Positions 18,571-64,000 of a stretch of DNA of 64,000 bases are shown piece after piece. Origin of the DNA: Odontesthes bonariensis. Lineage: Eukaryota; Chordata; Actinopteri; Atheriniformes; Atherinopsidae. The notes beneath the pieces are model-generated. The model ran no database searches and was not told the origin of the DNA. It was given only the letters and a program-made list of their open reading frames with translations. The stretch covers positions 2,968,470 through 3,032,469 of the forward strand of contig NC_134526.1 of NCBI RefSeq assembly GCF_027942865.1. The letters are read 5' to 3'. A program made the position numbers and the translations under genes. Numbering within the stretch: the stretch's first letter is position 1; each line of letters opens with the position of its first letter.

Positions 18571-19905
18571 CACTTTAAAAGATTATGAGAAAGTCTGGCT
18601 GCTTGGAGAGAAACAGAAAGAAATGAGGGCTGGATCAGGACTTTTGGAATGGACTGTTGTTCTGGATAGCAAGCAATTTGTTCCAAATGCAAACCCAGAC
18701 AGAAAAGAATGTTTGGCCCAAAAATAACCAGCATGGACACTATCTTTTTTGCTCAGATTTGACCCTGAAAGACCGTAGCTGCTTCAACTCATCCACAAAT
18801 CTAACAGACATGGCACAAATCTGCATTTCTTTGGATCACCCATGTAAGACATAGCTCATAAACTTTGGGCTGCACATACCCAGATTACATGTGTCTGTTG
18901 GAAATAAGACGTCTGCTAAGAAGACGCTGGCAGCATTGCAGAAACAGGTTGATTGGAAACTAACCATTTAATCTTTTTTTTTAATAACAGATATTCACAG
19001 GAGATGGTATTACTACAAAAGTGGGAATTATTCAATTAAAAAGTACATTAAATCTGTTAAAACTGAGTTTGGTCTATAAGATGATTATCAAATCAAACAT
19101 CAGAGCATGTGACAGAATGACATAAATACACTCTGCACACGTTTATCATTGAGGCATCGTTTACATCTGGAGGGAACTATTCTATGTTCTTTAAGTAAAG
19201 GACCCGGATACGCCCATCCCTGCCTTTGCACTACTTTTCATGCTCTAAAAGTCAATTCACAGGTTAACATACTTTAAAGGAGGAGCTTTTACAACATGAC
19301 ACTTTAAATGACCAAAATGGTAAATAAAAGGGAAGAAGCTGTTAATGACTGGATATTCAGTGTGGACTCCATCCATGAGCCGAGTGTGGTTATCCCTCAG
19401 AGGACTGCAGAGCAGCTGGACCGGTTCACAGGGTCTCACTGCCAAGGATATTTCTGAAATGTGAAGCATCTGAAAGCCCGTGTTTCCTGATGAAACGTGT
19501 CATGCAGGCTGCTGAAGTAACACAGTTCAACTGCGACATCTAGTGGTGCTAACGCACACTGTGCTGCCCGTTTGGGGTTCGTCAACAAGGAGCAAGAAGG
19601 TGGAAATGCTGTGATTTCATCTCAGCTTATGGGGGGAAAGTGAAAGTTTAAATGTGATTAATCTGCCAACATGAATGATTTAAACCAGAGTTCAAACTAA
19701 AAATAGAAAAACACATTTAGATTTATTTACCAACTCTTTATAAAAAGGTCCAACAAAGACTGAACAGCAAGTGACCAAATTTCAGATATAAATATGAATA
19801 AAAAACTGCATCCGAACGCAGAAATATTCAGCTGTGGCTTCTTCAGCACAATTAAAATGTCCTTCTCCCTCCAAATGAGAACCGAAGCGGAACTGTTGCT
19901 TTTAA

Positions 19906-20280
19906 AGGGATAGTTCGCCTCTTTTGCCTGCTGATGCCTGCCGACAGCCGCGCCTGTTACAGTGTTTGCTGCTCGGTCTGCACAGCAGGCAGTGATACGA
20001 AGGGAGAGAAAATAGGGCCAAGCGATTGTGAGGTCTGACTTTTTCCTGGAGAATGATTTTGTGATGCAAATGTATTACTCTGTTGAACGCATATTGTTTT
20101 GAGAAGCAAAACGCTTTATTTTTTAAACCCCAGCCAACTAGCCGGACTACCTTCATCAACACCAAAACGAGGCTGGAACTCTGCTCATAGGACGCAGCCG
20201 GGGGTAAGAAGATGTTCATAAATGATGCTGCTGATATGGGATGTTACACAGCTTCATGTCAAAAGAGATGAACTATCCCT
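19906..20280. mobile_element. Kolobok/T2-like MITE, complete, 375 bp
   Basis: TTAA at 19902-19905 and 20281-20284 flanks inverted ends AGGGATAGTTCGCCTCTTTT and AGGGATAGTTCATCTCTTTT. It has no coding capacity; the short open frames across it recur in every copy of the family and are by-products. It lies 68 bp beyond the HSP70 poly(A) signal. Confidence 0.75.
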
Positions 20281-20351
20281 TTAACTCATCTGATATTTGA
20301 AAATTAAATATTTTTCACAAGAACAACCTTAGTTATTTAATTCATTTCATC

Positions 20352-20357
20352 TTTATT
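20352..20357 (-). terminator. poly(A) signal of HSP70 copy 1
   Basis: AATAAA on the minus strand, within GCAATAAAGATG, about 210 bp past the stop codon. The same hexamer in the same context follows all five HSP70 genes. Confidence 0.75.
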
Positions 20358-20564
20358 GCAATGCCCAGCACAGCAGGGATGAAAACACTCATTCAAACAT
20401 TCGTCATTCCACATGAACCAAACATACTGACATTAAATATGAATTTATAGTTTCTGTTCAAACTCAGAAGATATTAAAAATATTTACAGTTCTTAAAGTG
20501 TCTGTGGGACATGAGACAAGAGCTCAGAGTTGAGCAGAGATCAGAGTCCACATTAAGGGCCACC

Positions 20565-22541
20565 TTAGTCCACCTCCTCAATAGTCGGCCCCTGGCTGTC
20601 GGCCCTCGCCTGCTCTCTGCACCCAGCGGGCATCCCTCCCTGGGGCATCCCTCCCTGGGGCATCCCTCCCTGGGGCATCCCTCCCTGGGGCATCCCTCCC
20701 TGGTACAGCTTGCTGATGATGGGCTGGCACACCTTCTCCAGCTCTTTCTGCTTGTCTTGGTACTCGTCTTTCTCAGCCAGCTGGTTGTTCTCCAGCCAGG
20801 CGATGGTCTCCTCACACTTCTCGGCCACCTTCTTCTTGTCCTCCTCGCTGATTTTGCCCTTCAAGCTCTCGTCCTGCACGGTGCTCTTCAAGCTGAAGGC
20901 GAATGACTCCAGGGAGTTCCTGGCAGCCATTTTGTCCCTCTGCAGGTCGTCCTCAGCTTTGTATTTGTCAGCGTCCTGCACCATCCTCTCGATCTCCTCT
21001 TTGCTCAGCCGGCCCTTATCGTTGGTGATGGTGATCTTGTTCTCTTTGCCGGTGCTTTTGTCCACCGCCGACACGTTCAAGATCCCGTTGGCGTCGATGT
21101 CGAAGGTGACCTCGATCTGCGGGACCCCCCTGGGAGCGGGTGGGAGTCCCGTCAGCTCGAACTTGCCCAGCAGGTTGTTGTCCTTGGTCATGGCCCTCTC
21201 CCCTTCGTAGACCTGGATCAGGACCCCGGGCTGGTTGTCAGAGTAGGTGCTGAACACCTGGGTTTGTTTGGTGGGGATGGTGGTGTTGCGTTTGATCAGG
21301 GACGTCATCACCCCTCCGGCCGTCTCGATACCCAGGGACAGAGGCGCCACGTCCAGCAGCAGCAGGTCCTGAACGTTGCCCGAGGTGTCGCCCGAGAGGA
21401 TGGCGGCCTGGACGGCGGCGCCGTAGGCCACCGCCTCGTCCGGGTTGATGCTCTTGTTCAGCTCCCGGCCGTTGAAGAAGTCCTGCAGGAGTTTCTGGAT
21501 TTTGGGGATTCTGGTGGAGCCTCCCACCAGGACCACGTCGTGGATCTGGCCCTTGTCCATTCTGGCGTCCCTCAGGGCTTTCTCCACCGGCTCCAAGGTT
21601 CCCCTGAACAGGTCGGAGCACAGCTCCTCAAAGCGAGCCCTGGTGATGGAGGTGTAGAAGTCGATGCCCTCAAACAGAGAGTCGATCTCGATGCTGGCCT
21701 GGGAGCTGGAGGACAGGGTCCTCTTGGCCCTCTCACAGGCTGTGCGCAGCCTCCTCAGGGCTCTCTTGTTCTGGCCGATGTCCTTCTTGTGCTTCCTCTT
21801 GAACTCCTCCACAAAGTGGTCGACCATGCGGTTGTCAAAGTCCTCTCCGCCCAGGTGAGTGTCTCCGGCCGTGGCCTTCACCTCAAAGATGCCGTCTTCG
21901 ATGGTCAGGACGGACACGTCGAAGGTGCCCCCGCCCAGGTCAAAGATCAGGATGTTCCGTTCCCCGGACTTGCCTTTGTCCAGACCGTACGCGATGGCGG
22001 CCGCCGTCGGCTCGTTGATGATCCTCAGGACGTTGAGTCCCGCGATGACGCCCGCGTCTTTGGTGGCCTGTCGCTGGGAGTCGTTGAAGTACGCCGGGAC
22101 CGTGATGACGGCGTTGGACACTTTTTGGCCCAGGTAGGCCTCGGCGATCTCCTTCATCTTCACCAGGACCATGGAGGAAACCTCCTCGGGGTAGAAGGCT
22201 TTGTCCTCCCCTTTGTACTCTACTTGTATTTTGGGCCTCCCTCCCTCTGAAACCACCTTGAAGGGCCAGTGCTTCATGTCCGCCTGCACCACCGGATCGT
22301 CACACTTTCTCCCGATCAGTCTCTTGGCATCAAACACAGTGTTGCTGGGGTTCATGGCCACCTGGTTCTTGGCTGCGTCCCCGATCAGCCTCTCGGTGTC
22401 GGTGAAGGCCACATAGCTGGGGGTGGTCCTGTTGCCCTGGTCGTTGGCGATGATCTCTACTTTTCCGTGCTGGAAAACCCCCACACAGGAGTAGGTGGTG
22501 CCCAGGTCGATGCCGATCGCTACGCCTTTGGCTGAAGACAT
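20565..22541 (-). CDS. hsp70: HSP70, inducible type, copy 1 (658 aa)
   Basis: Cytosolic/nuclear ATP-dependent chaperone that binds and refolds unfolded clients with J-domain and nucleotide-exchange partners. All three family signatures are intact: IDLGTTYS (11-18), [14 protein letters not shown] (199-212) and [15 protein letters not shown] (336-350). The linker DLLLLDV is at 392-398, a lid follows, then five GGMP repeats (615-638) and the terminal EEVD that docks TPR co-chaperones. The coding region is uninterrupted. A minus-strand acceptor ends at 22565, preceded by CACCTTTAG, and a donor GTAAGT lies at 23071-23076, so a 512-nt 5'-UTR intron is predicted (22565-23076). Private differences from the other copies are S3, L551 and I608. 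It is the only copy with S at residue 3. The gene is complete and looks functional. Confidence 0.97.
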
Positions 22542-23217
22542 CTTGGCTGTGTTGGCTTTGTGTCCTAAAGGTGCAGAGACACAAATGAGCAGGAGCGTGA
22601 GAAAAGTAAGTGAACATCTGCAGCAGCTGTTGGAGCTTCAGCTGTTTTCTATCAAAAGAAACTGAGTCCCAGCATCAGAGGACTGAGGTCATACAGAGTG
22701 AATGCATCATCAAGTCTTTTTACTTCAAATCACATGAATTAAATATATCAACACAGAACAAAAACAAAACCATTAAACTGTTAAATCTTCAACAAGACAC
22801 AACTATTTAGATATACACAATAAGCTTCTGTTCACTTTAATGTTACAGAACCGCAAAATTAGTCAGAAAAGCAAGTTACTGACAGATTTGAACAGTTCTG
22901 TGATAAGTCAGAGCTTCTTATATTCTTACTGTACAAAACAAGTATGATTATACAAACATTTTTTTTTTTAAATAAAGTAACTAAGTAGTCGTAAATTATT
23001 TCTTTTGGAGTTAACAAACAGAAAAATATACATAAGTACACCTTTAAAATAAGGAAAACTTTAGATGAGCACTTACTCTGGCTGGAAGTTAAAAATGAAG
23101 ATGGATTTGAATTAAAATCTGTTCCTCTCCGCGGCGCAGCTCGTCTTCAGCTCCGGTCTTCTGTGTCTCTTCTCGGATCTCTTCTTGTCTGAACTGCCGG
23201 TGTTCACCTCCAGCACT

Positions 23218-23345
23218 GTTTTTATTCTTCTTCGCTCCCTTCTCGTTGTTTCTCGAGGTTTCCATTGACTCTCTTGTCCAATCACAGCTCGGCGCGGCGC
23301 TCTGCGTCATGACGTCATCTGCGAGAAGTTTCTCCTGCCTTCTCG
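23218..23345 (-). promoter_or_regulatory. heat-shock promoter of HSP70 copy 1
   Basis: On the minus strand, reading 5' to 3': an HSE with AGAAACTTCT (23324-23333) and a further GAA at 23340-23342, a perfect CRE TGACGTCA (23310-23317), an inverted CCAAT box (23278-23282), a run of GAA triplets at 9-10-bp spacing (about 23226-23256), and a TATA-like AATAAAAAC (23218-23226). Transcription should start near 23190. The HSE arrangement is the known binding site of HSF1. The CRE is shared by all copies. Confidence 0.8.
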
Positions 23346-25210
23346 TCGCTCAGAGAAATCGTTAGAAGTGTTAAACAGAAAAATATTGTTATAGATCATT
23401 TAAGATTCATCCTCTAAATACAGTAAGAGTGACAACGAATATGGAGAGACTGATGTTGAAAAGCTCCGTGAAAAATTCAAGTAAATCAGGACACAAATCT
23501 ACTTTAAAACCAAACGTTTATTGAAAACTTCTTAATATTTCTTTAAAATCTAAAATTTGTTATTGGATAACAAGATTTAATCCATGCCGAACATTTTAGA
23601 AGACATTAGAGATTATTATGAATTAGCGGGTTCTTTTCACAACTCTGTAAAAATAACCAGGAGACCAGAAAATGCTTTAAAACGGTCATTTTTTAAATGG
23701 AGTCTTGGTGCACAGGTTCTATGTTTGGAGAAAGAGACATTTAATCAACATTTACATATAAAATGGGATATTTTTATTTGAAAGTGAGGTCAGTGTGTTG
23801 ATATTTACGACAAGTGCTTAAAAATTCAAAATAATTCACAAAACATAAGCCTTTTAGACTTTTTCTTCCATCAGAGTCTACTCTTTAATAGTTTATTTGT
23901 GTATTTTTATTTATGGCCTCGTGCAGGTGCCATATCTTTGTGTTGATGATCAGCTCAAATAATTTCATTTTCATAGCACCAATTCCCAACAAAAGACATC
24001 TCAAAGCACTTTAATTAAACTTGTTTAATTAATTTTTAAAGTCCAAACAGTTCGACCCAGTTATTTTCCAAATCAGCGTTTGGTTGCTGGAGCTGGTAAA
24101 GATAGTTTTCAATATTTAATGAAGTGTTTCAGCTGCTCAGGTTGGTAAAACTGTCAAAGAAAACAGAGTTAAAGAGTAAAATGTTTCTTCTGGATGTGAA
24201 ATATCTACATTATTAGAATATAAACACAATTAATGGGATCCTAAATGTAAGGTGGAAATTATTACCATAAGGAGCATTAAAACCTTTTAATTAAGTACAA
24301 GATTTGGAAAAACACAACTTTTTAACACTAGAAATGCAATCAAAACCAATTAATCAAAACCAAAGACAAACAATGAATCTGAGAACATTTTCAAACTCTT
24401 TAAAGTCTCAGTTTTGTCTTCTTTAAGGAGTTGAACAAGGAGGCAGGCTGAACATTTACTGTAGATGTGACATAACTCTGTGTTCCTCGGCGTAGTTTGG
24501 AGATGAATTAGGTCAACAGGATGTGTTCATTCTCTCACCTGAGAGCTAAACATCTGCTGTAATATGAAAGGTGGTAAAACTGAAGTTCTACAGTGTTGTT
24601 ATGTTAGTTGTTTCCACCAGATGTCACCAAAGTTTGGATGTTTTAAATCAGCGAACAGCAGGAAAATATTGACCAGACTCAGATTTATTTTGTTTCCTGC
24701 CTTTATAAAAACATTAATGATTTTCTTTTTAATTATTAGTAACATAGAAGATAATGCAGTTGTTGTTTTATTAAAACAGGGATAAATAAGTTGAACTGTT
24801 TGGTATTTATTAGTTTGAAATGTCGTAAACTTTATAAACTTACCTTCAGTCATTTTAACTTTATTTTTAAAGTCCAAACAGTTCGACCCAGTTATTTTCC
24901 AAATCAGCGTTTGGTTGCTGGAGCTGGTAAAGATAGTTTTCAATATTTAATGATGTGTTTCAGCTGCTCAGGTTGGTAAAACTGTCAGAAAACAGAGTTA
25001 AAGAGTAAAATGAGCACATGCTGATACTTTAGTTTCTTCTGGATGTGAAATATCTACATTATTAGAATATAAACATAATTAATGGGATCCTAAATGTAAG
25101 GTGGAAATTATTACCATAAGGAATACTAAAACATTTTAATTAGGTACAAGATTTGGAAAAACACAACTTTTTAACACTAGAAATGCAATCAAAACCAATT
25201 AATCAAAACC

Positions 25211-28136
25211 TTCACCAGCCCCAACAGCCCAACAGGCGGAGTCTCCCCCAGCCCCAGTGGGAAACCCCCAGCCTTCGCCCCCCCGGACCCCACCCAGCCC
25301 CCTGCTCTCTCCACTCAGTCTGGACTCCTCACTTCTGGATTTCCCTGACAGGATGAAGAGCCTTCTCAATATTGGAATACAATTGACTCCACGCCAAAAT
25401 CCCATATTCTTCCCCCCTAACATCCCACCTCATCCAGCCCCTCCCATTCCACCACGTCCATCACGTTGGAAACAACCCTCAAACAAAAGTCACCAAGCCT
25501 CCCCACCTCCTGTGAATCATCATATCTGTGAGTCTGACTGATATGTGCCGGGTCCAGGCTGTAATACTGATATCAAGAATGCTCTTCCCCAGATAAAGTC
25601 AGGGCCCTATGGAGTTCAGACAGCCTTTTCAATCCCTGTGATGACAGCTAACAGAAAAGTGGTCAAACTGGTGAGAAATAAAAAAGGTTCAGTTAAATCT
25701 ACCAATCTATTGAATATAGTGTGTCAACCCCGAAACGCACCAGTATCACCTGTTGTCTCCACGAGATTAGCCCTACTCAATATCAGATCACTAGCCAACA
25801 AATCCCTCGTAGTAAATGACATGATCATGACCTATAATCTAGACTTTCTATTTCTTAGTGAAACATGGCTGACTGAATGTAGCTGTGATACCATTCTCAA
25901 TGAGGCCGCACCAACAAATTTCAGTTTTATCAATAAGTGTGGAAGTGGTAAGAAGGGCGGGGGAGTTGCTGCCATTTTTAAATCAGTCTTTCAGTGCAAA
26001 GAAATTTTACTTGGTGATTTTAGCTCATTTGAATATCTCTGTTTTTTAGTAAAGGGGGATCCAAAAGTTATCTTCCTAATCATTTATAGACCACCAAGAT
26101 ACCCAGGAACTTTCTTTGATGAGTTTGCTGAACTGCTGTCAGTTATCTGCACTGACTATAACTTTTTTTATCATAACAGGGGATTTTAACATTCCCATGG
26201 ACAATAACATGGACACTAATGCCAAAGAACTCTGCTCTCTACTTGACACTTTTGGCCTCCTTCAACATGTGAATGGACCCACACATACTCGAGGCCACAC
26301 ACTGGATCTGGTTATCTGTAAAGGTGTTGACATTTCTTCTGTTGATATCAAGGACTTGGCGCTCTCTGATCATTTCTGTGTGTTCTCTGACTTACAGTTA
26401 ACTCCAAACATTCAGTTAACCCGTGTGTCTGTTAGAAAAAGGTACATAAATGAGAATACCAGTGCTAAGTTTATGGAAGTTATTGCTATGTCATCAACTG
26501 CGAGTGCAGAGACAGTTGATGAACTCTTAGATAACTTTAACTTGAAAATCTCAAATGTCATGGATACTGTTGCACCTGTTAAAAATAAGATGATCTTGAG
26601 CAGAAAGCGAACACCATGGAGGAACACTATGACGGTAAAGGCCTTGAAAACAGAATGCAGGAAAGCAGATGAATGGCGAAAAACTAAACTTCAAATTCAC
26701 CATGACCTCTACAAACAAAGTCTTTGTAATTTTAACCACGGGTTACTCCGCGCTAGACAGCAACACTTATCTGGAATGATTAATAAGAACATCAACAACA
26801 CTCGTGCTCTGTTTGCTATGGTTAATAAGCTGACAACTCCCCCAAAACAGATAGTTTCAGAACTCTGTTCCACAGAAAAATGTAATGAATTTGTTTGTTA
26901 TACTGCTGAACAGGTTGGAAACCTGGGCAGGACTCAGCGGGACAGTCCTAGAATGGTTCAGGTCCTACTCGGAGGAGCGGAGTTATTTTGTGACTATTGG
27001 AAGTAATCAATCTGATCGAGTGGCTATGACATGTGGAGTTCCTCAGGGGTCAGTTCTTGGACCCTTCTGTTCACTCTATACATGCTGCCTCTGGGTCAAA
27101 TTCTGAAGAACTCTAAAGTCAACTACCACAGCTATGCAGATGACACACAGATATATCTGGCACTGTCTCCAGATGACTGCAGTCCTATAGAGTCATTGTG
27201 CGACTGCTTAGAGCAAGTCAAAAAGTGGATGAACCAAAATTTCCTTCAGTTAAATCAAGAAGAAACTGAGGTCATTGTGTTTGGCAACAAAGAAAAGAGG
27301 TTTGCTGTCAGTAAACATCTTGAGTCACTGTCTCTAGAAACTAAAGACCAAGTCCGGAACCTCGGCGTGCTGATAGACTCAGACCTGACCTTCAACAATC
27401 ATATCAAATCAGTCACCAAATCAGCCTTTTATCAACTTAAGAACATATCCAGAATTAAGGGTTTCATGTCCCAAACAGATCAGGAAAAACTGATTCATGC
27501 TACATGCTAATGCTAACGGTCTTCTGACTGGACTCCCCCAAAAGAGTCTCAAACAGCTGCAGCTCATTCAGAACGCTGCAGCCCGAGTTTTAACCAGATC
27601 AAAGAGATCACATCACATCACCCCGTTCACAGGTCTTTACATTGGCTCCCGGTCAGATACAGAATAGATTTTAAAGTTCTGCTACTCGTCTACTAATCAC
27701 GGAATGGTTTAGGTCCAGAATACATGAATGACATGCTAGCAGAGTATAAACCCAGCAGAGCTCTGAGATCTGCTGACTCAGGTCAGATAGTGGAGCCCAG
27801 AGTTCAAACTGGACCCGGTGAAGCAGCTTTTAGCTGTTATGCTGCACACAACTGGAACAAACTACCAGCAGAACTGAAATCAGCCCCAACTGTAAGCACT
27901 TTTAAATCCAGGTTAAAAGCATTTCTCTTTCCGTGTGCTTATGGTTGAGTTTATATTTTTCTTTTCCCTTCTTCTTTGATTGCTTTTAACTGTGTTTTAA
28001 TTTTTTTATTCTCTTTAAATTGCTTGTTTTTATGCTGCTTTATGCTGTTCTTTTAAATGCCTTGTCTTTATGTAAAGCACATTGAGTTGCCTGAAGGTAT
28101 GAGATATGCTATATAAATAAAGATGCCTTGCCTTGC
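25211..28136 (+). pseudogene. LINE A (L2-type), long form, internally deleted
   Basis: A proline-rich leader (25257-25541) ends in a stop just before the endonuclease frame. The endonuclease (25545 to about 26400) shows [33 protein letters not shown]-type and SDHFCVF blocks. A run of seven T near 26165 shifts the frame, where LINEs C-E have six. At about 26898 the linker jumps from CNEFVC to TAEQVGN, so about the first half of the reverse transcriptase is missing. The later half remains: GVPQGSVLGP, YADDTQIY and LGVLIDSDLTF. The 3' end is ATATAAATAAAGATGCC plus TTGCC units. It cannot move on its own. Confidence 0.85.
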
Positions 28137-29301
28137 ATATCTTTTATGCTCAGATTTGACCCTGAAAGACCGTAGCTGCTTCAATTCATCCACAATTCTA
28201 ACAGACATGGCACAAATCTGCATTTCTTTGGATCACCCATGGAAGACATAGCTCATAAACTTTGGGCTGCACATACCCAGATTACATGTGTCTGTTGGAA
28301 ATAAGACGTCTGCTAAGAAGACGCTGGCAGCATTGCAGAAACAGGTTGATTGGAAACTAACCATTTAATCTTTTTTTTTAATAACAGATATTCACAGGAG
28401 ATGGTATTACTACAAAAGTGGGAATTATTCAATTAAAAAGTACATTAAATCTGTTAAAACTGAGTTTGGTCTATAAGATGATTATTAAATCAAACATCAG
28501 AGCATGTGACAGAAAACATAAATACACTCTGTACACGTTTATCATTGAGGCATCGTTTACATCTGGAGGGAACTATTCTATGTTCTTTAAGTAAAGGACC
28601 CGGATACGCCCATCCCTGCCTTTGCACTACTTTTCATGCTCTAAAAGTCAATTCACAGGTTAACATACTTTAAAGGAGGAGCTTTTACAACATGACACTT
28701 TAAATGACCAAAATGGTAAATAAAAGGGAAGAAGCTGTTAATGACTGGATATTCAGTGTGGACTCCATCCATGAGCCGAGTGTGGTTATCCCTCAGAGGA
28801 CTGCAGAGCAGCTGGACCGGTTCACAGGGTCTCACTGCCAAGGATATTTCTGAAATGTGAAGCTTCTGAAAGCCCGTGTTTCCTGATGAAACGTGTCATG
28901 CAGGCTGCTGAAGTAACACAGTTCAACTGCGACATCTAGTGGTGCTAACGCACACTGTGCTGCCCGTTTGTGGTTCGTCAACAAGGAGCAAGAAGGTGGA
29001 AATGCTGTGATTTCATCTCAGCTTATGGGGGGAAAGTGAAAGTTTGAATGTGATTAATCTGCCGACATGAATGATTTAAACCAGAGTTCAAACTAAAAAT
29101 AGAAAAACACATTGAGATTTATTTACCAACTCTTTATAAGAAGGTCCAACAAAGACTGAACAGCAAGTGACCAAATTTCAGATATAAATATGAATAAAAA
29201 ACTGCATTCGAACGCAGAAATATTCAGCTGTGGCTTCTTCAGCACAATTAAAATGTCCTTCTCCCTCCAAATGAGAACCGAAGCGGAACTGTTGCTTTTA
29301 A

Positions 29302-34607: not shown

Positions 34608-36465
34608 TTCACCAGCCCCAACAGCCCAACAAGTGGAGTCTCCCCCAGCCCCAGTGGGAAACCCCCAGACTTCGCCCCCCCGGACCCCACCCAGCCCCCA
34701 GCTCTGGACTCCTCACTTCTGGATTTCCCTGACAGGATGAAGAGCCTTCTCAATATTGGAATCCAATTGACTCCACGCCAAAATCCCATATTCTTCCCCC
34801 CTAACATCCCACCTCATCCAGCCCCTCCCATTCCACCACGTCCCTCACGTTGGAAACAACCCTCAAACAAAAGTCACCAAGCCCCCCCACCTCCTGTGAA
34901 TCATCATATCTGTGAGTCTGACGGATATGTGCCGGGTCCAGGCTGTAATACTGATATCAAGAATGCTCTTCCCCAGATAAAGTCAGGGCCCTATGGAGTT
35001 CAGACAGCCTTTTCAATCCCTGTGATGACAGGAAACAGAAAAGTGGTCAAACTGGTGAGAAATAAAAAAGGTTCAGTTAAATCTACCAATCTATTGAATA
35101 TAGTGTGTCAACCCCGAAACACACCAGTATCACCTGTTGTCTCCACGAGATTAGCCCTACTCAATATCAGATCACTAGCCAACAAATCCCTCTTAGTAAA
35201 TGACATGATCATGACCTATAATCTAGACTTTTTATTTCTTAGTGAAACATGGCTGACTGAATGTAGCTGTGATACCATTCTCAATGAGGCCGCACCAACA
35301 AATTTCAGTTTTATCAATAAGTGTGGAAGTGGTAAGAAGGGCGGGGGAGTTGCCGCCATTTTTAAATCAGTCTTTCAGTGCAAAGAAATTTTACTTGGTG
35401 ATTTTAGCTCATTTGAATATCTCTGTTTTTTAGTAAAGGGAGATCCAAAAGTAATCTTCCTAATCATTTATAGACCACCGAGATACCCAGGAACTTTCTT
35501 TGATGAGTTTGCTGAACTGCTGTCAGTTATCTGCACTGACTATAACTTTTTTTATCATAACTGGGGATTTTAACATTCACATGGACAATAACATGGACAC
35601 TAATGCCAAAGAACTCTACTCTCTACTTGACACTTTTGGCCTCCTTCAACATGTGAATGGACCCACACATACTCGAGGCCACACACTGGATCTGGTTATC
35701 TGTAAAGGTGTTGACATTTCTTCTGTTGATATCAAGGACTTGGCGCTCTCTGATCATTTCTGTGTGTTCTCTGACTTACAGTTAACTCCAAACATTCAGT
35801 TAACCCGTGTGTCTGTTAGAAAAAGGTACATAAATGAGAATACCAGTGCTAAGTTTATGGAAGTTATAGCTATGTCATCAACTGCGAGTGCAGAGACAGT
35901 TGATGAACTCTTAGATTACTTTAACTTGAAAATCTCAAATGTCATGGATACTGTTGCACCTGTTAAAAATAAGATGATCTTGAGCAGAAAGCGAACACCA
36001 TGGAGGAACACTATTATGGTAAAGGCCTTGAAAACAGAATGCAGGAAAGCAGAGCGTAAATGGAGAAAAACTAAACTTCAAATTCACCATGACCTCTACA
36101 AACAAAGTCTTTGTAATTTTAACCACGGGTTACTCCGCGCTAGACAGCAACACTTATCTGAAATGATTAATAAGATCATCAACAACACTCGTGCTCTGTT
36201 TGCTATGGTTAATAAGCTGACAACCCCCCCAAAAATGATAGTTTCAGAACTCTGTTCCACAGAGGAATGCAATGAATTTGTTTCTTTTTTCAATGAAAAC
36301 ATCAAATCTATAAGGCTAAATATCAACATAATAAAATGACGCAATCCTTAAAACCACCTAGGAATCAATCAACTATGATGTCAGAATTCAATACAGTTGA
36401 CCAAAAAAACCATAGAAGAAACAGTCCAGCATCTTAAACCATCGACATCCTGTCTTCGACATCTA
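34608..36465 (+). pseudogene. LINE B (L2-type), short form
   Basis: Leader and endonuclease are joined in one frame (34737-35573) because the stop found in LINEs A, C, D and E is absent here (GACGGATATG in place of GACTGATATG). The same seven-T frameshift as LINE A follows near 35550, and 35500-36339 continues the endonuclease and linker in another frame. Unlike A and C it keeps FFNENIKSIRLN after CNEF. It stops at the junction with the half-MITE, with no reverse transcriptase and no 3' end. Confidence 0.85.
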
Positions 36466-36467
36466 CT

Positions 36468-36668
36468 CTTTTGAACGCATATTGTTCTGAGAAGCAAAAC
36501 GCTTTGTTTTTTAAACCCCAGCCAACTAGCCGGACTACCTTCATCAACACCAAAACGAGGCTGGAACTCTGCTCACAGGACGCAGCAGGGGGTAAGAAGA
36601 TGTTCAGAAATGATGCTGCTGATATGGGATGTTACACAGCTTCATGTCAGAAGAGGCGAACTGTCCCT
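36468..36668. mobile_element. Kolobok/T2-like MITE, right half only
   Basis: The sequence from TTGAACGCATATTG to the terminal CCCT plus TTAA (36669-36672) is kept; the left 170 bases are replaced by LINE sequence. The join falls in TACTCT, present in both parents. Confidence 0.8.
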
Positions 36669-36739
36669 TTAATCATCTGATATTTGAAAATTAAATATTT
36701 TTCACAAGAACAACTTTAGTTATTCAATTCATTTTCATC

Positions 36740-39207: not shown

Positions 39208-39807
39208 TAGAGATACTCATTGCGCGGCTCCTCAAGCTTTAATTGGTGGTTCGCACTCGCATAGTAGCTTATAACAATCTGGTAAAAATAACAATATTTT
39301 TTTTCAAATAACATACAGAGAATACTGCACAGTATTAAGTATTTTTATTAATTATTAATTAAGGCTTAATGGTGTTTCCTAAAGAGGGAACTGTTAAACC
39401 TGGCAACGCAGCCCGCTTAAACCACCTCAGACTTGACCACAGAGCAGCTAGCTCCTTTAGCGCGAGATGCAGGCACAATGGATCGGTTTTTAATTATAAA
39501 AGGGCAAAAATCAGCACAAAAACCATGCTCATCTTGAATGTCTCACTATGATTACAACAACAAACTACAAATACAACATGAAGAAAGTCGAGCACATGCA
39601 CGCCAGCTTCCACTCATCCCAGTATTAAGGTAAATGTGGTCTGAATTGAAAATGTATTGGCTGTGTTGTTTCTTTTTTTGTGGGATGTTTTATATGTAGA
39701 AATGCATATTTGCAAAAGGGGACTTTAGTATGTTGTGGTAAAAGTGGCTCTTCCCTTGATTTTGCTGCCAATGTGGCTCTGGTGAAATAAATTAGTGAGT
39801 ATCACTG
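39208..39807. mobile_element. hAT-type element in the HSP70 copy 3 leader intron, 600 bp
   Basis: Ends TAGAGATACTCATTG and (reverse complement) CAGTGATACTCACTAA are inverted repeats. They are flanked by ATTTAGAT (39200-39207) and GTTTAGAT (39808-39815). The empty site, ATTTAGATATACAC, is seen in units 1, 2 and 5. A short frame near 39478, ATGGATCGG followed by TTTTTAATTA, reads MDRFLI, which resembles hAT transposase starts, but no transposase follows. Confidence 0.85.
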
Positions 39808-40219
39808 GTTTAGATATACACAATAAGCTTCTGTTCACTTTAATGTTACAGAACCGCAAAATTAGTCAGAAAAGCAGGTTACTGACAGATTTGAACAGTT
39901 CTGTGATAAGTCAGAGCTTCTTGTATTCTTACTGTACAAAACAAGTATGATTATACAAACATTTTATTTTTAAATAAAATAACTAAGTAGTCATAAATTA
40001 TTTATTTTGGAGTTAACAAACAGAAAAATATACATAAGTAGACCTTTAAAATAGGGAAAACTTTAGATGAGCACTTACTCTGGCTGGAAGTTAAAAATGA
40101 AGATGGATTTGAATTAAAATCAGTTCCTCTCCGCGGCGCAGCTCGTCTTCAGCTCCGGTCTTCTGTGTCTCTTCTCGGATCTCTTCTTGTCTGAACTGCC
40201 GGTGTTCACCTCCAGCACC

Positions 40220-45109: not shown

Positions 45110-45212
45110 TATCTTTTTAGCCCAGATTTGACCCTGAAAGACCGTAGCTGCTTCAATTCATCCACAATTCTAACAGACATGGCACAAATCTGCATTTCTT
45201 TGGATCACCCAT

Positions 45213-45568
45213 GTAATTTTAACCAGGGGTTACTCCGGGCAAGACAGCAACACTTATCTGAAATGATTAATAAGAACATCAACAACACTCGTGCTCTTTT
45301 TGCTATGGTTAATAAGCTGACAACCCCCCCAAAACAGATAGTTTCAGAACTCTGTTCCACAGAAAAATGTAATGAATTTGTTTGTTTTTTCAATGAAAAA
45401 AAATTAAATCCATAAGGCTAAATATCAACATAAATCAGCAAAATAATAAGATGACGCAATCCTTAAAACCACCGAGGAATCAATTAACTATGATGTCAGA
45501 ATTCAATACAGTTGACCAAAAAAACATAGAAGAAACAGTCTATATAAATAAAGATGCCTTGCCTTGCC
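45213..45568 (+). pseudogene. secondary LINE fragment, rearranged
   Basis: LINE linker sequence (LLRARQQHLSEMINKN, TTPPKQIVSELCSTEKCNEF, FFNEK) is followed after GAAACAGTC directly by the LINE 3' tail TATATAAATAAAGATGCC. It sits between two copies of the spacer start (45110-45212 and from 45569), so the local order is spacer start, LINE piece, LINE tail, spacer start again. It arose by a rearrangement that is unique to this unit. Confidence 0.8.
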
Positions 45569-49603: not shown

Positions 49604-50208
49604 TAGAGATACTCATTGCGCGGCTCCTCAAGCTTTAATTGGCGGCTCGCACTCGCATAGTAGCTTATAACAATCTGGTAAAAATAACAATATTTTTTTT
49701 CAAATAACATACAGAGAATACTGCACAGTATTAAGTATTTTTATTAATTATTAATTAAGGCTTAATGGTGTTTCCTAAAGAGGGAACTGTTAAACCTGGC
49801 AACGCAGCCCGCTTAAACCACCTCAGACTTGACCGCAGAGCACGCTAGCTCCTTTAGCCAGCGCGAGATGCAGGCACCATGGATCGGTTTTTAATTAAAA
49901 AAGGGCAAAAATCAGCACAAAAACCATGCTCATCCTGAATGTCTCACTATGATTACAACAACAAACTACAAATACAACATGAAGAAAGTCGAGCACATGC
50001 ACGCCAGCTTCCACTCATCCCAGTATTAAGGTAAATGTGGTCTGAATTGAAAATGTATTGGCTGTGTTGTTTCTTTTTTTGTGGGATGTTTTATATGTAG
50101 AAATGCATATTTGCAAAAGGGGACTTTAGTATGTTGTGGTAAAAGTGGCTCTTCCCTTGATTTTGCTGCCAATGTGGCTCTGGTGAAATAAATTAGTGAG
50201 TATCACTG
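49604..50208. mobile_element. hAT-type element in the HSP70 copy 4 leader intron, 605 bp
   Basis: Same element, same site and same mismatched target duplication (ATTTAGAT 49596-49603, GTTTAGAT 50209-50216) as in unit 3. The two copies differ from each other by a few substitutions and small indels, so they come from one insertion that was then duplicated. Confidence 0.85.
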
Positions 50209-50631
50209 GTTTAGATATACACAATAAGCTTCTGTTCACTTTAATGTTACAGAACCGCAAAATTAGTCAGAAAAGCAGGTTACTGACAGATTTGAACAGT
50301 TCTGTGATAAGTCAGAGCTTCTTGTATTCTTACTGTACAAAACAAGTATGATTATACAAACATTTTATTTTTAAATAAAATAACTAAGTAGTCATAAATT
50401 ATTTATTTTGGAGTTAACAAACAGAAAAATATACATAAGTAGACCTTTAAAATAGGGAAAACTTTAGATGAGCACTTACTCTGGCTGGAAGTTAAAAATG
50501 AAGATGGATTTGAATTAAAATCAGTTCCTCTCCGCGGCGCAGCTCGTCTGCAGCTCGTCTTCAGCTCCGGTCTTCTGTGTCTCTTCTCGGATCTCTTCTT
50601 GTCTGAACTGCCGGTGTTCACCTCCAGTACC

Positions 50632-52642: not shown

Positions 52643-54502
52643 TTCACCAGCCCCAACAGCCCAACAGGCGGAGTCTCCCCCAGCCCCAGTGGGAAACCCC
52701 CAGCCTTCGCCCCCCCGGACCCCACCCAGCCCCCAGCTCTGGACTCCTCACTTCTGGATTTCCCTGACAGGATGAAGAGCCTTCTCAATATTGGAATACA
52801 ATTGACTCCACGCCAAAATCCCATATTCTTCCCCCCTAACATCCCACCTCATCCAGCCCCTCCCATTCCACCACGTCCATCACGTTGGAAACAACCCTCA
52901 AACAAAAGTCACCAAGCCTCCCCACCTCCTGTGAATCATCATATCTGTGAGTCTGACTGATATGTGCCGGGTCCAGGCTGTAATACTGATATCAAGAATG
53001 CTCTTCCCCAGATAAAGTCAGGGCCCTATGGAGTTCAGACAGCCTTTTCAATCCCTGTGATGACAGCTAACAGAAAAGTGGTCAAACTGGTGAGAAATAA
53101 AAAAGGTTCAGTTAAATCTACCAATCTATTGAATATAGTGTGTCAACCCCGAAACACACCAGTATCACCTGTTGTCTCCACGAGATTAGCCCTACTCAAT
53201 ATCAGATCACTAGCCAACAAATCCCTCGTAGTAAATGACATGATCACGACCTATAATCTAGACTTTTTATTTCTTAGTGAAACATGGCTGACTGAATGTA
53301 GCTGTGATACCATTCTCAATGAGGCCGCACCAACAAATTTCAGTTTTATCAATAAGTGTGGAAGTGGTAAGAAGGGCGGGGGAGTTGCCGCCATTTTTAA
53401 ATCAGTCTTTCAGTGCAAAGAAATTTTACTTGGTGATTTTAGCTCATTTGAATATCTCTGTTTTTTAGTAAAGGGGAATCCAAAAGTTATCTTCCTAATC
53501 ATTTATAGACCACCAAGATACCCAGGAACTTTCTTTGATGAGTTTGCTGAACTGCTGTCAGTTATCTGCACTGACTATAACTTTTTTATCATAACTGGGG
53601 ATTTTAACATTCACATGGACAATAACATGGACACTAATGCCAAAGAACTCTACTCTCTACTTGACACTTTTGGCCTCCTTCAACATGTGAATGGACCCAC
53701 ACATACTCGAGGCCACACACTGGATCTGGTTATCTGTAAAGGTGTTGACATTTCTTCTGTTGATATCAAGGACTTGGCGCTCTCTGATCATTTCTGTGTG
53801 TTCTCTGACTTACAGTTAACTCCAAACATTCAGTTAACCCGTGTGTCTGTTAGAAAAAGGTACATAAATGAGAATACCAGTGCTAAGTTTATGGAAGTTA
53901 TAGCTATGTCATCAACTGCGAGTGCAGAGACAGTTGATGAACTCTTAGATTACTTTAACTTGAAAATCTCAAATGTCATGGATACTGTTGCACCTGTTAA
54001 AAATAAGATGATCTTGAGCAGAAAGCGAACACCATGGAGGAACACTATTATGGTAAAGGCCTTGAAAACAGAATGCAGGAAAGCAGAGCGTAAATGGAGA
54101 AAAACTAAACTTCAAATTCACCATGACCTCTACAAACAAAGTCTTTGTAATTTTAACCACGGGTTACTCCGCGCTAGACAGCAACACTTATCTGAAATGA
54201 TTAATAAGATCATCAACAACACTCGTGCTCTGTTTGCTATGGTTAATAAGCTGACAACTCCCCCAAAACAGATAGTTTCAGAACTCTGTTCCACAGAAAA
54301 ATGCAATGAATTTGTTTCTTTTTTCAATGAAAACATCAAATCTATAAGGCTAAATATCAACATAATAAAATGACGCAATCCTTAAAACCACCTAGGAATC
54401 AATCAACTATGATGTCAGAATTCAATACAGTTGACCAAAAAACCATAGAAGAAACAGTCCAGCATCTTAAACCATCGACATCCTGTCCTCGACATCTACT
54501 CT
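52643..54502 (+). pseudogene. LINE D (L2-type), short form
   Basis: Leader 52772-52960 ends in a stop. The endonuclease and linker are open in one frame (52964-54373), with six T. It shares the KAERKWRKTKL and LLDYFNLK variants with LINE B, where A, C and E read KADEWRKTKL and LLDNFNLK. It ends at the half-MITE junction, without reverse transcriptase. Confidence 0.85.
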
Positions 54503-54701
54503 TTTGAACGCATATTGTTTTGAGAAGCAAAACGCTTTATTTTTTAAACCCCAGCCAACTAGCCGGACTACCTTCATCAACACCAAAACGAGGCTGGAAC
54601 TCTGCTCACAGGACGCAGCAGGGGGTAAGAAGATGTTCATAAATGATGTTGCTGATATGGGATGTTACACAGCTTCATGTCAAAAGAGGCGAACTGTCCC
54701 T
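54503..54701. mobile_element. Kolobok/T2-like MITE, right half only
   Basis: Same join to LINE sequence as in unit 3; terminal TTAA at 54702-54705. Confidence 0.8.
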
Positions 54702-54772
54702 TTAATCATCTGATATTTGAAAATTAAATATTTTTCACAAGAACAACTTTAGTTATTCAATTCATTTTCATC

Positions 54773-54778
54773 TTTATT
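54773..54778 (-). terminator. poly(A) signal of HSP70 copy 5
   Basis: AATAAA on the minus strand in the conserved context. Confidence 0.75.
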
Positions 54779-57751: not shown

Positions 57752-60700
57752 TCGCTCAGAGAAATCGTTAGAAGTGTTAAACAGAAAAATATTGTTATAG
57801 ATCATTTAAGATTCATCCTCTAAATACAGTAAGAGTGACAGCGAATATGGACAGACTGATGTTGAAAAGCTCCGTGAAAAATTCAAGTAAATCAGGACAC
57901 AAATCTACTTTAAAACCAAACGTTAATTGAAAACTTCTTAATATTTCTTTAAAATCTAAAATCTGTTATTGGATAACAAGATTTAATCCATGCCGAACAT
58001 TTTAGAAGACATTAGAGATTATTATGATTTAGCGGGTTCTTTTCACAACTCTGTAAAATAACCAGGAGACCAGAAAATGCTTTAAAACGGTCATTTTTTA
58101 AATGGAGTCTTGGTGCACAATGTCTATGTTTGGAGAAAGAGACATTTAATCAACATTTACATATAAAATTGGATATTTTTATTTGAAAGTGAGGTCAGTG
58201 TGTTGATATTTACAACAAGTGCTTAAAAATTCAAAATAATTCACAAAACATAAGCCTTTTAGACTTTTTCTTCCATCAGAGTCTACTCTTTAATAGTTTA
58301 TTTGTGTATTTTTATTTATGGCCTCGTGCAGGTGCCATATCTTTGTGTTGATGATCAGCTCAAATAATTTGATTTTCATAGCACCAATTCCCAACAAAAG
58401 ACATCTCAAAGCACTTTAATTAAACTTGTTTAATTTATTTTTAAAGTCCAAACAGTTCGACCCAGTTATTTTCCAAATCAGCGTTTGGTTTCTGGAGCTG
58501 GTAAAGATAGTTTTCAATATTTAATGAAGTGTTTCAGCTGCTCAGGTTGGTAAATCTGTCAAAGAAAACAGAGTTAAAAAGTAAAATGTTTCTTCTGGAT
58601 GTGAAATATCTACATTATTAGAATATAAACACAATTAATGGGATCCTAAATGTAAGGTGGAAATTATTACCATAAGGAGCATTAAAACCTTTTAATTAGG
58701 TACAAGATTTGGAAAAACACAACTTTTTAACACTAGAAATGCAATCAAAACCAATTAATCAAAACCAAAGACAAACAATGAATGTGAGAACATTTTCAAA
58801 CTCTTTAAAGTCTCAGTTTTGTCTTCTTTAAGGAGTTGAACAAGGAGGCAGGCTGAACATTTACTGTAGATGTGACATAACTCTGTGTTCCTCGGCGTAG
58901 TTTGGAGATGAATTAGGTCAACAGGATGTGTTCATTCTCTCACCTGAGAGCTAAACATCTGCTGTAATATGAAAGGTGGTAAAACTAAAGTTCTACAGTG
59001 TTGTTATGTTAGTTGTTTCCACCAGATGTCACCAAAGTTTGGATGTTTTAAATCAGCGAACAGCAGGAAAATATTGACCAGACTCAGATTTATTTTGTTT
59101 CCTGCCTTTATAACAACATTAATGATTTTCTTTTTAATTATTAGCAACATAGAAGATAATGCAGTTGTTGTTTTATTAAAACAGGGATAAATAAGTTGAA
59201 CTGTTTGGTATTTATTAGTTGGGAATGTCGTAAACTTTATAAACTTACCTTCAGTCATTTTAACTTTATTTTTAAAGTCCAAACAGTTCGACCCAGTTAT
59301 TTTCCAAATCAGCGTTTGGTTGCTGGAGCTGGTAAAGATAGCTTTCAATATTTAATGATGTGTTTCAGCTGCTCAGGTTGGTAAATCTGTCAGAAAACAG
59401 AGTTAAAGAGTAAAATGAGCACCAGCTGATACTTTAGTTTCTTCTGGATGTGAAATATCTACATTATTAGAATATAAACATAATTAATGGGATCCTAAAT
59501 GTAAGGTGGAAATTATTACCATAAGGAATACTAAAACATTTTAATTAGGTACAAGATTTGGAAAAACACAACTTTTTAACACTAGAAATGCAATCAAAAC
59601 CAATTAATCAAAACCTTCACCAGCCCCAACAGCCCAACAAGTGGAGTCTCCCCCAGCCCCAGTGGGAAACCCCCAGCCTTCGCCCCCCCCGGACCCCACC
59701 CAGCCCCCAACTCTGGACTCCTCACTTCTGGATTTCCCTGACAGGATGAAGAGCCTTCTCAATATTGGAATCCAATTGACTCCACGCCAAAATCCCATAT
59801 TCTTCCCCCCTAACATCCCACCTCATCCAGCCCCTCCCATTCCACCACGTCCATCACGTTGGAAACAACCCTCAAACAAAAGTCACCAAGCCCCCCCACC
59901 TCCTCTGAATCATCATATCTGTGAGTCTGACTGATATGTGCCGGGTCCAGGCTGTAATACTGATATCAAGAATGCTCTTCCCCAGATAAAGTCAGGGCCC
60001 TATGGAGTTCAGACAGCCTTTTCAATCCCTGTGATGACAGCAGAGGTGTCAAGTAACAAAGTACAAATACTTTGTTACTGTACTTAAGTACACTTTTTAT
60101 GTATCTGTACTTTACTCCATTACTTATTGTTCTGCCTATTTCTGACTTCTACTCATTACATTTTCACACAAGTATCTGTACTTTCTATTCCTTACATTTT
60201 CAAAACAAACAGCCTCGTTACTCTTGGCTTCAGTTTAATGTTTATGTATTTCAAATCATGTGCGCCATCCAATACAGATCAGTGGCGCCATCCACACCTA
60301 GTGAGAACGAGTGTAATTGGATGAATCATATAACGCAAACACTCATCGGTTAGGCTATTCATCAAATTTGTGCTGACACACAAGGAAATCGTCATTCGTC
60401 AGAAGCAAGCAGATGTTCTACAAACTGCAAACGTGAAGCGTCTAACATAATCTTAGTGTGTATGCAAAATTGTTGCACTCTCCTACTCCGTGCCATTTTC
60501 AGAGCGTTTTAGGTGCTCTGTATGTAGTGATAAAGAGCTCATTTTCATTTCAGTTTTTGTCTTGACTGTCAGCTATGACAAAGGGGGGAACGTGCGTGTG
60601 TATAACATTTTTTCTTTGAATTTTTCAGGCAGTAAGACTTTTTGTTTGTTTTTTTGATGGGACCAGGGGCGTCTGTAGCTTGAGCAAACATTTGGGGCTG

Positions 60701-60917
60701 TAGCCCAGACATGAAAATAATTTTTAACGGGGGTCAGGGGGTTTTTCCCCCAGGATTTTTTTTAAAAAAAGGGGGTGTTAAAATGAAAATTTAACACAGT
60801 TCATGACCAGCTGCTTAACATGTTGAATGCCGAGCTGTGAATGTTGGCATTCATGTTTTGATAAAATGCCGAGATCCATATATCCAAATGCTGACATTGT
60901 GTCTTTGTTAGCCTAAC

Positions 60918-61690
60918 GGTGCGTTCACACCAAACGCGATGCGAATATTCGCACCGCCTTCATCGCGCGATCGTTGCCGCAGGTGTAAATTAAATTCCAT
61001 CGCCTCAAACGCCTCTTTCGCGCGAGTAAAAAACGAGTGAATAGCTCAAGGGGCTATCCATGGCTGATCGCTCCTTGTACCTGCTGTGGCAGTCCGAGAT
61101 TCGTCTGAAACGCACACGCCGTCGTGTCTGGGTCAGTGACATCATCCGGTGGTGCATTCAGCTCGGATAATTTCATCGCCTTCTACAGGAGTTGCGTCTG
61201 GATGACGGCCGCCTCCAGCGGCACCCCAGGCCCACCAGGACCCAGCCCGACGACCCGCTCGGGAGGACCGGCGCCTGCAGCCGGCGTCCCGCCGAGAGAT
61301 CACGGCACCGATCCTCCCGAGCGGGTCGTCGGGCTGGGTCCTGGTGGGCCTGGGGTGCCGCTGGAGGCGGCCGTCATCCAGACGGAACTCCTGGAAAAGG
61401 CGGTGATTTAATTTTTTTATTTTATTTTGTCAGGGACCATGTGCAAAGTACATTAATTACAAAGTAAAGAGATGACCTGCACCAGATTGTAGCTTAGAAG
61501 CTAATTTCCATCTGCAGTCCCATCTGCATGTCACAGACAGCGCCTGTCCATCTGTCTCCACGTCACTGTCGTCCAGAATCTCAACGCTGATAGGCTGTCT
61601 GGCGCGAATATATCGCCAAAGTTGGATTTTTTGAACTCGCGCGAATCGCATATTTTCAATCGCGCGGCGGCCACCGCATCACCGCACCGC
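60918..61690. mobile_element. PIF/Harbinger-derived remnant nested in the hAT element
   Basis: It begins GGTGCGTTCACACCAAACGC, a typical fish Harbinger end, and finishes near 61690 in decayed complementary CGCGCGAATCGC-type sequence. About 61060-61270 encodes MADRSLYLLWQSEIRLKR-like sequence and then LQELRLDDGRLQRHPRP, with PTRTQPDDPL next. This matches the N-terminal region of Harbinger transposases (usual form LRLDDGRFQRYFR, then SRTQFDDLL). The catalytic part is absent and replaced by an inverted copy of this segment. The right boundary is approximate. Confidence 0.6.
61174..61406. repeat. near-perfect ~100-bp palindrome with 30-bp loop
   Basis: Arm 61174-61274 is complementary to 61305-61406. 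The inner 70-80 bases are almost without mismatch, with a few mismatches at both edges. The arms encode the Harbinger N-terminal segment in opposite directions. GC content is far above that of the surroundings. It would form a very stable hairpin as RNA or single-stranded DNA. Confidence 0.9.
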
Positions 61691-63786
61691 TCCTCACTGC
61701 ACCTCAGAATCCTGCGGTCTGAGCTGGTTACAAAGTTGCATGATGACAGCAGCGCCGCGGTAGTCTATCACCGCTCAAAGTGTGGTCCCGTGACGGAGCT
61801 CTCCTTCTTTTTCTTCTTCTTCGTTCTTCTTCTTCTTCTTATTATTATACATATTTTTCTTTATGTCAGTCCAGAGAGATTCGGGGCTGAAGCCCCGAAT
61901 GACCAGGTCTCTCGACGCGCATGGATGGGACGAACATGAATACCTCACGACCTACCTCTTGAATACTACCTCACGTGTAATTAAATTCCAATAAAGTTTG
62001 AGAAAGAACATGCTCCTTGAGTGACTTTGTCTTTGACAGGAATGGTTTTATGATTGTTGTCTTGGGCCACATGTAGAACTAACCAGTTTTCAAATTAAGC
62101 TTGCAATTCGTATAGTGGCAGCTACCTTTTTGTGTGTGTTTTTTTTTTTTTTTTAAATTTAAAATTTTTTTAATTTAAAGGTTACTTTATGCTTTTATAC
62201 TTTAAGTAGGTTTTGGAGCACATACTTTTTCACTTTTACTTGAGTAAAGAGGTCAAGTTGATACTTCAACTTTTACCAGAGTGTTTTTAAACTGCAGTAT
62301 CTATACTTCTACTTAAGTAACAAATGTGTGTACTTTTGACACCACTGCATGACAGGTAACAGAAAAGTGGTCAAACTGGTGGGAAATAAAAAAGGTTCAG
62401 TTAAATCTACCAATCTATTGAATATAGTGTGTCAACCCCGAAACACACCAGTATCACCTGTTGTCTCCACGAGATTAGCCCTACTCAATATCAGATCACT
62501 AGCCAACAAATCCCTCGTAGTAAATGACATGATCATGACCTATAATCTAGACTTTTTATTTCTTAGTGAAACATGGCTGACTGAATGTAGCTGTGATACC
62601 ATTCTCAATGAGGCCGCACCAACAAATTTCAGTTTTATCAATAAGTGTCGAAGTGGTAAGAAGGGCGGGGGAGTTGCCGCCATTTTTAAATCAGTCTTTC
62701 AGTGCAAAGAAATTTTACTTGGTGATTTTAGCTCTTTTGAATATCTCTGTTTTTTGTAAAGGGGGATCCAAAAGTTATCTTCCTAATCATTTATAGACCA
62801 CCAAGATACCCAGGAACTTTCTTTGATGAGTTTGCTGAACTGCTGTCAGTTATCTGCACTGACTATAACTTTTTTATCATAACTGGGGATTTTAACATTC
62901 ACATGGACAGTAACATGGACACTAATGCCAAAGAACTCTGCTCTCTACTTGACACTTTTGGCCTCCTTCAACATGTGAATGGACCCACACATACTCGAGG
63001 CCACACACTGGATCTGGTTATCTCTAAAGGTGTTGACATTTCTTCTGTTGATATCAAGGACGTGGCGCTCTCTGATCATTTCTGTGTGTTCTCTGACTTA
63101 CAGTTAACTCCAAACATTCAGTTAACCCGTGTGTCTGTTAGAAAAAGGTACATAAATGAGAATACCAGTGCTAAGTTTATGGAAGTTATAGCTATGTCAT
63201 CAACTGCGAGTGCAGAGACAGTTGATGAACTCTTAGATAACTTTAACTTGAAAATCTCAATTGTCATGGATACTGTTGCACCTGTTAAAAATAAGATGAT
63301 CTTGAGCAGAAAGCGAACACCATGGAGGAACACTATTATGGTAAAGGCCTTGAAAACAGAATACAGGAAAGCAGATGAATGGCGAAAAACTAAACTTCAA
63401 ATTCACCATGACCTCTACAAACAACGTCTTTGTAATTTTAATCACGGGTTACTCCGGGCTAGACAGCAACACTTATCTGAAATGATTAATAAGAACATCA
63501 ACAACACTCGTGCTCTGTTTGCTATGGTTAATAAGCTGACAACCCCCCCAAAACAGATAGTTTCAGAACTCTGTTCCACAGAGAAATGCAATGAATTTGT
63601 TTGTTTTTTCAATGAAAACATCAAATCTATAAGGCTAAATATCAACATAATAAAATGACGCAATCCTTAAAACCACCTAGGAATCAATCAACTATGATGT
63701 CAGAATTCAATACAGTTGACCAAAAAACCATAGAAGAAACAGTCCAGCATCTTAAACCATCGACATCCTGTCTTCGACATCTACTC

Positions 63787-63986
63787 TTTTGAACGCATAT
63801 TGTTCTGAGAAGCAAAACGCTTTATTTTTTAAACCCCAGCCAACTAGCCGGACTACCTTCATCAACACCAAAACGAGGCTGGAACTCTGCTCACAGGACG
63901 CAGCAGGGGGTAAGAAGATGTTCAGAAATGATGCTGCTGATATGGGATGTTACACAGCTTCATGTCAAAAGAGGCGAACTATCCCT
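63787..63986. mobile_element. Kolobok/T2-like MITE, right half; start of unit 6
   Basis: Same LINE to half-MITE join as in units 3 and 5, with the terminal TTAA at 63987-63990. In those units the HSP70 stop codon lies about 290 bp beyond this point, so a sixth HSP70 is expected just outside the window. Confidence 0.8.
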
Positions 63987-64000
63987 TTAATCATCTGATA

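Follow-up and report, generated by a model that had tools for sequence, protein, structure and literature searches.

A tandem HSP70 gene array in Odontesthes bonariensis whose first duplication may have been bridged by a LINE retrotransposon

The window analysed here is a stretch of 64,000 nucleotides from Odontesthes bonariensis (assembly GCF_027942865.1, contig NC_134526.1, positions 2,968,470 to 3,032,469 of the forward strand), and all positions below refer to it. A sequence-only reading of this DNA had described a transposon-laden, head-to-tail array of nearly identical HSP70 genes beginning at position 18741. We considered the genes, the units in which they are repeated and the joints between these units, which hold a long interspersed nuclear element (LINE) that the sequence-only reading overlooked and that probably took part in the origin of the array.

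The HSP70 genes

The window contains five intact HSP70 open reading frames (ORFs), all on the minus strand and 643-658 amino acids (aa) long. In 5/5 copies the coding region is an intronless single ORF, and EEVD is the terminus of the protein.

20565-22541, minus strand: HSP70 copy 1, 658 aa, scanned with Pfam
29969-31915, minus strand: HSP70 copy 2, 648 aa
36960-38936, minus strand: HSP70 copy 3, 658 aa, used to search for structural relatives
47401-49332, minus strand: HSP70 copy 4, 643 aa
54998-56944, minus strand: HSP70 copy 5, 648 aa

Coding identity between the copies is 99.1-99.8%, and the stop-to-stop spacings of 9404, 6991, 10441 and 7597 bp given by the sequence-only reading are exact, as is its count of five intact same-strand genes. 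The Pfam HSP70 profile matched copy 1, the one copy of five scanned, over 599/599 profile positions (E=8.3e-264), and the best-ranked solved relative of copy 3, again one copy of five, was HSP70 1A. The copies vary by a few substitutions and by the count of GGMPQ-type repeats near the C-terminus. The 15-base repeat coding for GGMPQ is present as 5.1 units in copies 1 (20628-20703) and 3 (37023-37098) and as 3.1 units in copies 2 (30032-30078) and 5 (55061-55106), copy 4 being below the score cut used for this listing. None of the 42 tblastn hits obtained in the window with the copy 1 protein (E up to 10) was an HSP70 remnant beyond the five genes. The genes are probably cytosolic HSP70 of the HSPA1 type and, to judge from their promoters, heat-inducible.

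All five promoters contain the heat-shock block GAGAAGGCAGGAGAAACTTCTCGC, the element TGACGTCA, an ATTGG box, a second GAGAA series and a TATA-like box, which we take to be heat-shock (HSE), cAMP-response (CRE), CCAAT and TATA elements. The heat-shock elements expected of an inducible HSP70 are thus found in 5/5 copies as one 24-base block (23321..23344, minus strand, in copy 1), identical in copies 2-5, where it starts at 32696, 40323, 50735 and 57727. An additional weak TTC-type match lies upstream in four of the five promoters and is missing from copy 4. Downstream of the TATA-like box every copy has a donor site GTAAGT and an acceptor site CTTTAG, the latter 23 bases before the ATG, so that an intron in the 5' untranslated region (5'UTR) is likely and is predicted here. 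AATAAA, presumably the poly(A) signal, occurs 210-222 bases past the start of the stop codon in all five copies. The predicted intron carries, at one site and in copies 3 and 4 only, an insertion of about 600 bp which we assume to be hAT-like.

39208..39808, minus strand: hAT-like element of copy 3, with ATCTAAA on both sides (8-bp target duplication, one mismatch)
49604..50209, minus strand: hAT-like element of copy 4, same element and same site

The insertion site is downstream of the TATA-like box, so the element does not come between this box and the heat-shock elements.

Repeated units and their junctions

Self-comparison of the window showed that entire units are repeated, not the genes alone, with 95.7-99.2% identity in alignments longer than 1 kb. 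With five same-strand HSP70 copies in such head-to-tail units, the locus is a tandem array, and the head-to-tail expansion proposed by the sequence-only reading is borne out. Its left boundary falls at 18740/18741, again in agreement with that reading, and it continues off the right end of the window. A full unit consists, from left to right, of the 3' flank of the gene with an interspersed repeat of about 300 bp, HSP70 on the minus strand, the promoter, upstream host sequence holding a 359-bp repeat twice (R1 and R2), and a LINE on the plus strand. The repeat of about 300 bp is also found outside the array, at 728-878 (partial) and 11156-11453. In unit 1, the host part of the unit, here called X, is the following segment:

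18741..25210: host segment X, 6470 bp, with the 3' flank, HSP70, promoter and R1/R2, beginning at the LINE-free left edge

The LINE, which we take to be of the L2/CR1 family, is present in every unit, and with the hAT-like insertions it justifies the description of the array as transposon-laden. The junctions are of two types, A and B.

25211..28137, plus strand: LINE of junction 1/2, type A, with an internal deletion; its 3' tail adjoins the start of unit 2
34608..36463, plus strand: LINE of junction 2/3, type B, without its 3' part, joined to the middle of the repeat of about 300 bp
42215..45108, plus strand: LINE of junction 3/4, type A, with Exo_endo_phos and RVT_1 domains
45109..45568, plus strand: probable relic of a deleted unit, with the first 108 bp of X, a LINE fragment and a second LINE 3' tail, without HSP70
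52643..54496, plus strand: LINE of junction 4/5, type B
59616..63781, plus strand: LINE of junction 5/6, type B, interrupted by a 2.3-kb hAT-like element
60041..62348: the 2.3-kb hAT-like element inside the unit 5 LINE, with ATGACAG on both sides (8-bp target duplication, one mismatch) and ends that we take to be Tol2-like

Pfam found endonuclease domains in the LINE copies scanned and a reverse transcriptase domain also in that of unit 3. A self-complementary palindrome of 234 bp (88%) lies at 61173-61406, within the 2.3-kb element.

The joint between R2 and the 5' end of the LINE is identical in 5/5 units. At the type A junctions (1/2 and 3/4), the internally deleted LINE reaches its 3' tail, ATAAAGATGCCTTGCCTTGC, which is followed by the first bases of a unit; junction 3/4 has two such tails. 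The surviving tails end at 28136, 45108 and 45567, and each of the three is followed by the sequence found at the start of the array (18741). The unit start can therefore be read at four places, namely these three tails and the left edge of the array, where it is preceded by unique flanking sequence without a LINE that joins unit 1 only. No match to the array LINE was found in 1-18740 (E up to 1e-5, at least 60 bp). A T-rich site, TATCTTTTTTG, which may be a target of the endonuclease type, lies at the 3' joint of the LINE. At the type B junctions (2/3, 4/5 and 5/6), the LINE is broken midway and joined to the middle of the repeat of about 300 bp, at 36457, 54490 and 63775. Three identical joints are most simply explained by one ancestral deletion, so that the units bearing the B joint were copied. 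The roughly 460 bp between the two tails of junction 3/4 are likely what is left of a unit stripped of its HSP70.

At the right end, 62349-64000 aligns with 35025-36682 (97.9%) and 53060-54715 (98.1%), through the common B joint and into the 3' flank of HSP70, which agrees with the match to units 3 and 5 noted by the sequence-only reading.

63782..64000: predicted start of a sixth unit, a half-repeat of the HSP70 3' flank, 219 bases matching the other copies

That reading had called this half-repeat a half-MITE (miniature inverted-repeat transposable element) preceding HSP70 at a constant distance of about 490 bp from the stop codon. The interspersed repeat is indeed there, but its ends were not found and the MITE label is unconfirmed; it lies to the left of the gene, but as the genes are on the minus strand it is 3' of them; and the distance is near the value given but not exactly 490, being 496 bp in unit 3 and 501 bp in unit 5. 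From the alignments with units 3 and 5 a sixth HSP70 stop codon is predicted at about 64278-64283, that is 278-283 bases past the end of the window, and the gene body, on the minus strand, would extend upward from about 64280. The sixth unit could possibly be truncated instead of complete. The array has at least five intact HSP70 genes in tandem and probably six or more in total.

Origin of the array

The junctions that keep the 3' end of the LINE, two in number, share a simple arrangement: a LINE fills the joint, its 3' end lies at the left edge of the duplication and the outer edge of the array is LINE-free. This is as expected of a target-primed insertion whose 5' end was joined to downstream DNA on the sister chromatid, and it suggests that the retrotransposon helped to make the first duplication. 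An L2/CR1-like LINE would have started target-primed insertion at the site now at 18741; its 5' end would then have been attached to DNA lying about 6.5 kb downstream, probably in the sister chromatid, and the product, X-LINE-X, would be a tandem duplication carrying the LINE at its joint. In its strictest form, the proposal is that a single germline retrotransposition, by bridging two sites separated by 6.5 kb, gave rise to a vertebrate array that went from one HSP70 to six or more and whose left edge keeps the empty target site; we advance this form tentatively.

The same X-LINE-X structure would result from end joining, or from microhomology-mediated replication, involving one chromosome with the LINE and one without it, given one break within the LINE and another where R2 ends. 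The LINE would then be a polymorphic neighbour at 18741 and a mere passenger, an explanation that is possible though somewhat doubtful. The LINE seems to begin within coding sequence, and the frame is open across the joint in one of the five units (unit 2), features that a passenger and a bridge both allow. A passenger, however, calls for two independent rare events where the bridge calls for one. Had the LINE instead lain originally to the right of X, a breakpoint would have had to fall by chance at its last base (roughly 5 positions per 9.4-kb unit, or 0.05%).

After such a bridged duplication, unequal exchange between the long repeats would have multiplied the X-LINE units, as the shared joints and the mosaicism of the units suggest. 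The LINE copies, 1.0-2.1% apart between units, are comparable to the remainder of the unit, which suits this history. One deletion may have given the shorter B joint, later copied, and another may have removed a unit, leaving the relic at 45109-45568. Which units are closest to each other depends on the part compared: 3-5 for the coding sequence, 1-2 and 3-4 upstream, and both 2-4 and 3-5 in the LINE. Incompatible sites among 66 informative ones were clustered beyond chance (0/10000 permutations at each of three window sizes), which is the mark of exchange between units; this test omits block a (present in units 1, 2 and 4 only), gapped columns and columns with more than two states. Together with the likely relic, this mosaicism supports the suggestion of the sequence-only reading that the locus is prone to recombination.

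Gene conversion in the coding region (concerted evolution) could also have been the main agent keeping the copies alike, which we consider unlikely. Two papers report such concerted evolution in flies and mammals (PMC3071340, PMC5865164), and both the coding identity and the mosaic units would suit it. Mean synonymous divergence (0.0175), however, is bracketed by the means for four other blocks, 0.0112, 0.0170, 0.0188 and 0.0309 (blocks a and b3 are omitted from these averages), and the coding region therefore shows no special homogenisation. Coding-specific gene conversion is thus unsupported, and the high coding identity is explained by recent origin and purifying selection. Mean nonsynonymous divergence is 0.0039, and in codons 1-610 of each gene, upstream of the GGMPQ repeats, 9 of 24 variable codons are nonsynonymous against about 77% expected from the share of sites (P=3.3e-5); the coding sequence is under purifying selection.

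Duplication in the assembly, the alternative that the sequence-only reading had itself raised, is unlikely. Part of the array would then be diverged haplotypes set in tandem, for which we see only a slim chance. The divergence between units, 1-3%, lies within the range of heterozygosity in fish; the joint types run A-B-A-B-B, an alternation that a two-gene block present as two haplotypes might give; the coding block of unit 1 is nearer to that of unit 3 than to that of unit 2, and the closest pair 2-4 in the LINE block is as predicted. Such blocks would nevertheless require the pairs 1-3 and 2-4 throughout, whereas 1-2 and 3-4 are observed upstream and 3-5 in the coding sequence, and the units carry distinct insertions and a relic, with the unique left flank joined to unit 1 only. 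The mosaicism thus counts against a simple case of falsely duplicated haplotypes, although the LINE, with its 2-4 pairing, would fit one if taken alone.

Two further origins were rejected: recombination between two LINEs flanking HSP70 predicts a LINE at the left edge, where there is none, and insertion of a LINE into a pre-existing tandem joint would require an exact coincidence of positions.

As for function, the copies, each with its own promoter, may jointly supply more HSP70 under heat shock, with purifying selection holding the proteins alike. Dosage selection, put forward by the sequence-only reading, is consistent with complete promoters in 5/5 copies and a constrained coding sequence, but the nonsynonymous deficit shows functional constraint, not selection for additional copies. 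A LINE-bridged first duplication, followed by unequal exchange and a joint role of the copies in dosage, is on balance the history that we favour, with modest confidence.

Several points weigh against this history. The first duplication is a reconstruction, as the sequence examined reaches neither the right end of the array nor the ancestral locus in its empty state; and the names given to the promoter elements and the poly(A) signal, the hAT assignments and the family of the LINE are provisional. Three of the five junctions are without the LINE 3' end, so that the evidence of the tails comes from two junctions, and the final tail base of junction 1/2 is unlike that of the other tails. Just before the 5' joint of the LINE, a partial duplication of 850 bp (R1-S-R2) complicates that end; R1 and R2 differ by 3.6% on average against 1.3-1.5% between units, with only 3 fixed differences, and this duplication looks older than that of the units.

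Surroundings of the array

Just outside the left edge of the array, an intact single-exon TRIM-type gene of 465 aa with RING, B-box, PRY and SPRY domains is found at 14091-15488 (plus strand), and an interspersed repeat of about 207 bp occurs at 9159-9365 and, immediately left of the edge, at 18363-18569 (95% identity). A fragment of a Tc1/Tc3-type transposase (Pfam HTH_Tnp_Tc3_2) lies at 8566-8928 (minus strand). Two stretches on the plus strand have no Pfam hit: 13048-13530, an open frame that by eye is presumably a Harbinger-type transposase, and 16081-16901, which we take to be a separate C-terminal fragment of a LINE-like reverse transcriptase, with a perfect (ATTG)17 tract slightly downstream. 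The window gave no RNA family at gathering score and no tRNA (ARAGORN, bacterial code). Its HSP70, TRIM-type and transposon content suggests a teleost host.

Comparison with known systems

Tandem arrays of inducible HSP70 genes are already known in fish, so that the array itself is ordinary; its origin is unusually readable. The mudskipper Boleophthalmus pectinirostris has seven hspa1a or hspa1a-like genes in tandem clusters attributed to local tandem duplication (PMC6406738). Like those described here, these are teleost HSP70 genes in tandem; the mudskipper proteins have 638 aa (five table rows) against 643-658 aa here, and the passages compared do not describe unit structure or joints, in contrast to the present array. 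By the title of Lim and Brenner (1999), the teleost Fugu rubripes likewise has five HSP70 genes in a cluster. According to the parts of the two papers compared, zebrafish hsp70.1 and hsp70.2 are in tandem and those of spotted seabass are on one chromosome with three genes between them (PMC8646100), while tandem duplication of hsp70 is reported as absent in Sebastiscus marmoratus (PMC10531354).

In the passages compared on the fly Stratiomys singularior, hsp70 has four tandem copies and one inverted copy with intergenic regions of varying length, transposon pieces near the 3'UTRs and, as here, unequal recombination as the proposed mechanism (PMC3071340). There, the coding sequences are homogenised by conversion and intergenic homology is short, whereas here entire units are alike and the coding sequence is not specially homogenised. 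No HSP70 array founded by a LINE was found among the matches listed, which were titles and abstract openings from a coverage that leaves out most subscription journals.

A likeness to the proposed origin comes from a human tumour, in which a single L1 event gave a tandem duplication of 22.6 Mb, for which bridging of sister chromatids was proposed in the passages compared (PMC7058536). In both cases the joint of a direct tandem duplication is occupied by a LINE whose 3' end marks the insertion site; the tumour case is somatic, of 22.6 Mb and due to human L1, whereas the present array is inherited, its segment is about 6.5 kb and its LINE is L2/CR1-like. The origin of the first copy of a tandem array is usually erased, while here the joint occupied by the LINE, probably the founding one, is legible at both ends, as is the outer edge. 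Should relatives bear this out, the array would show a mechanism described in tumours at work naturally in the germline, and at a gene whose dosage matters for heat tolerance.

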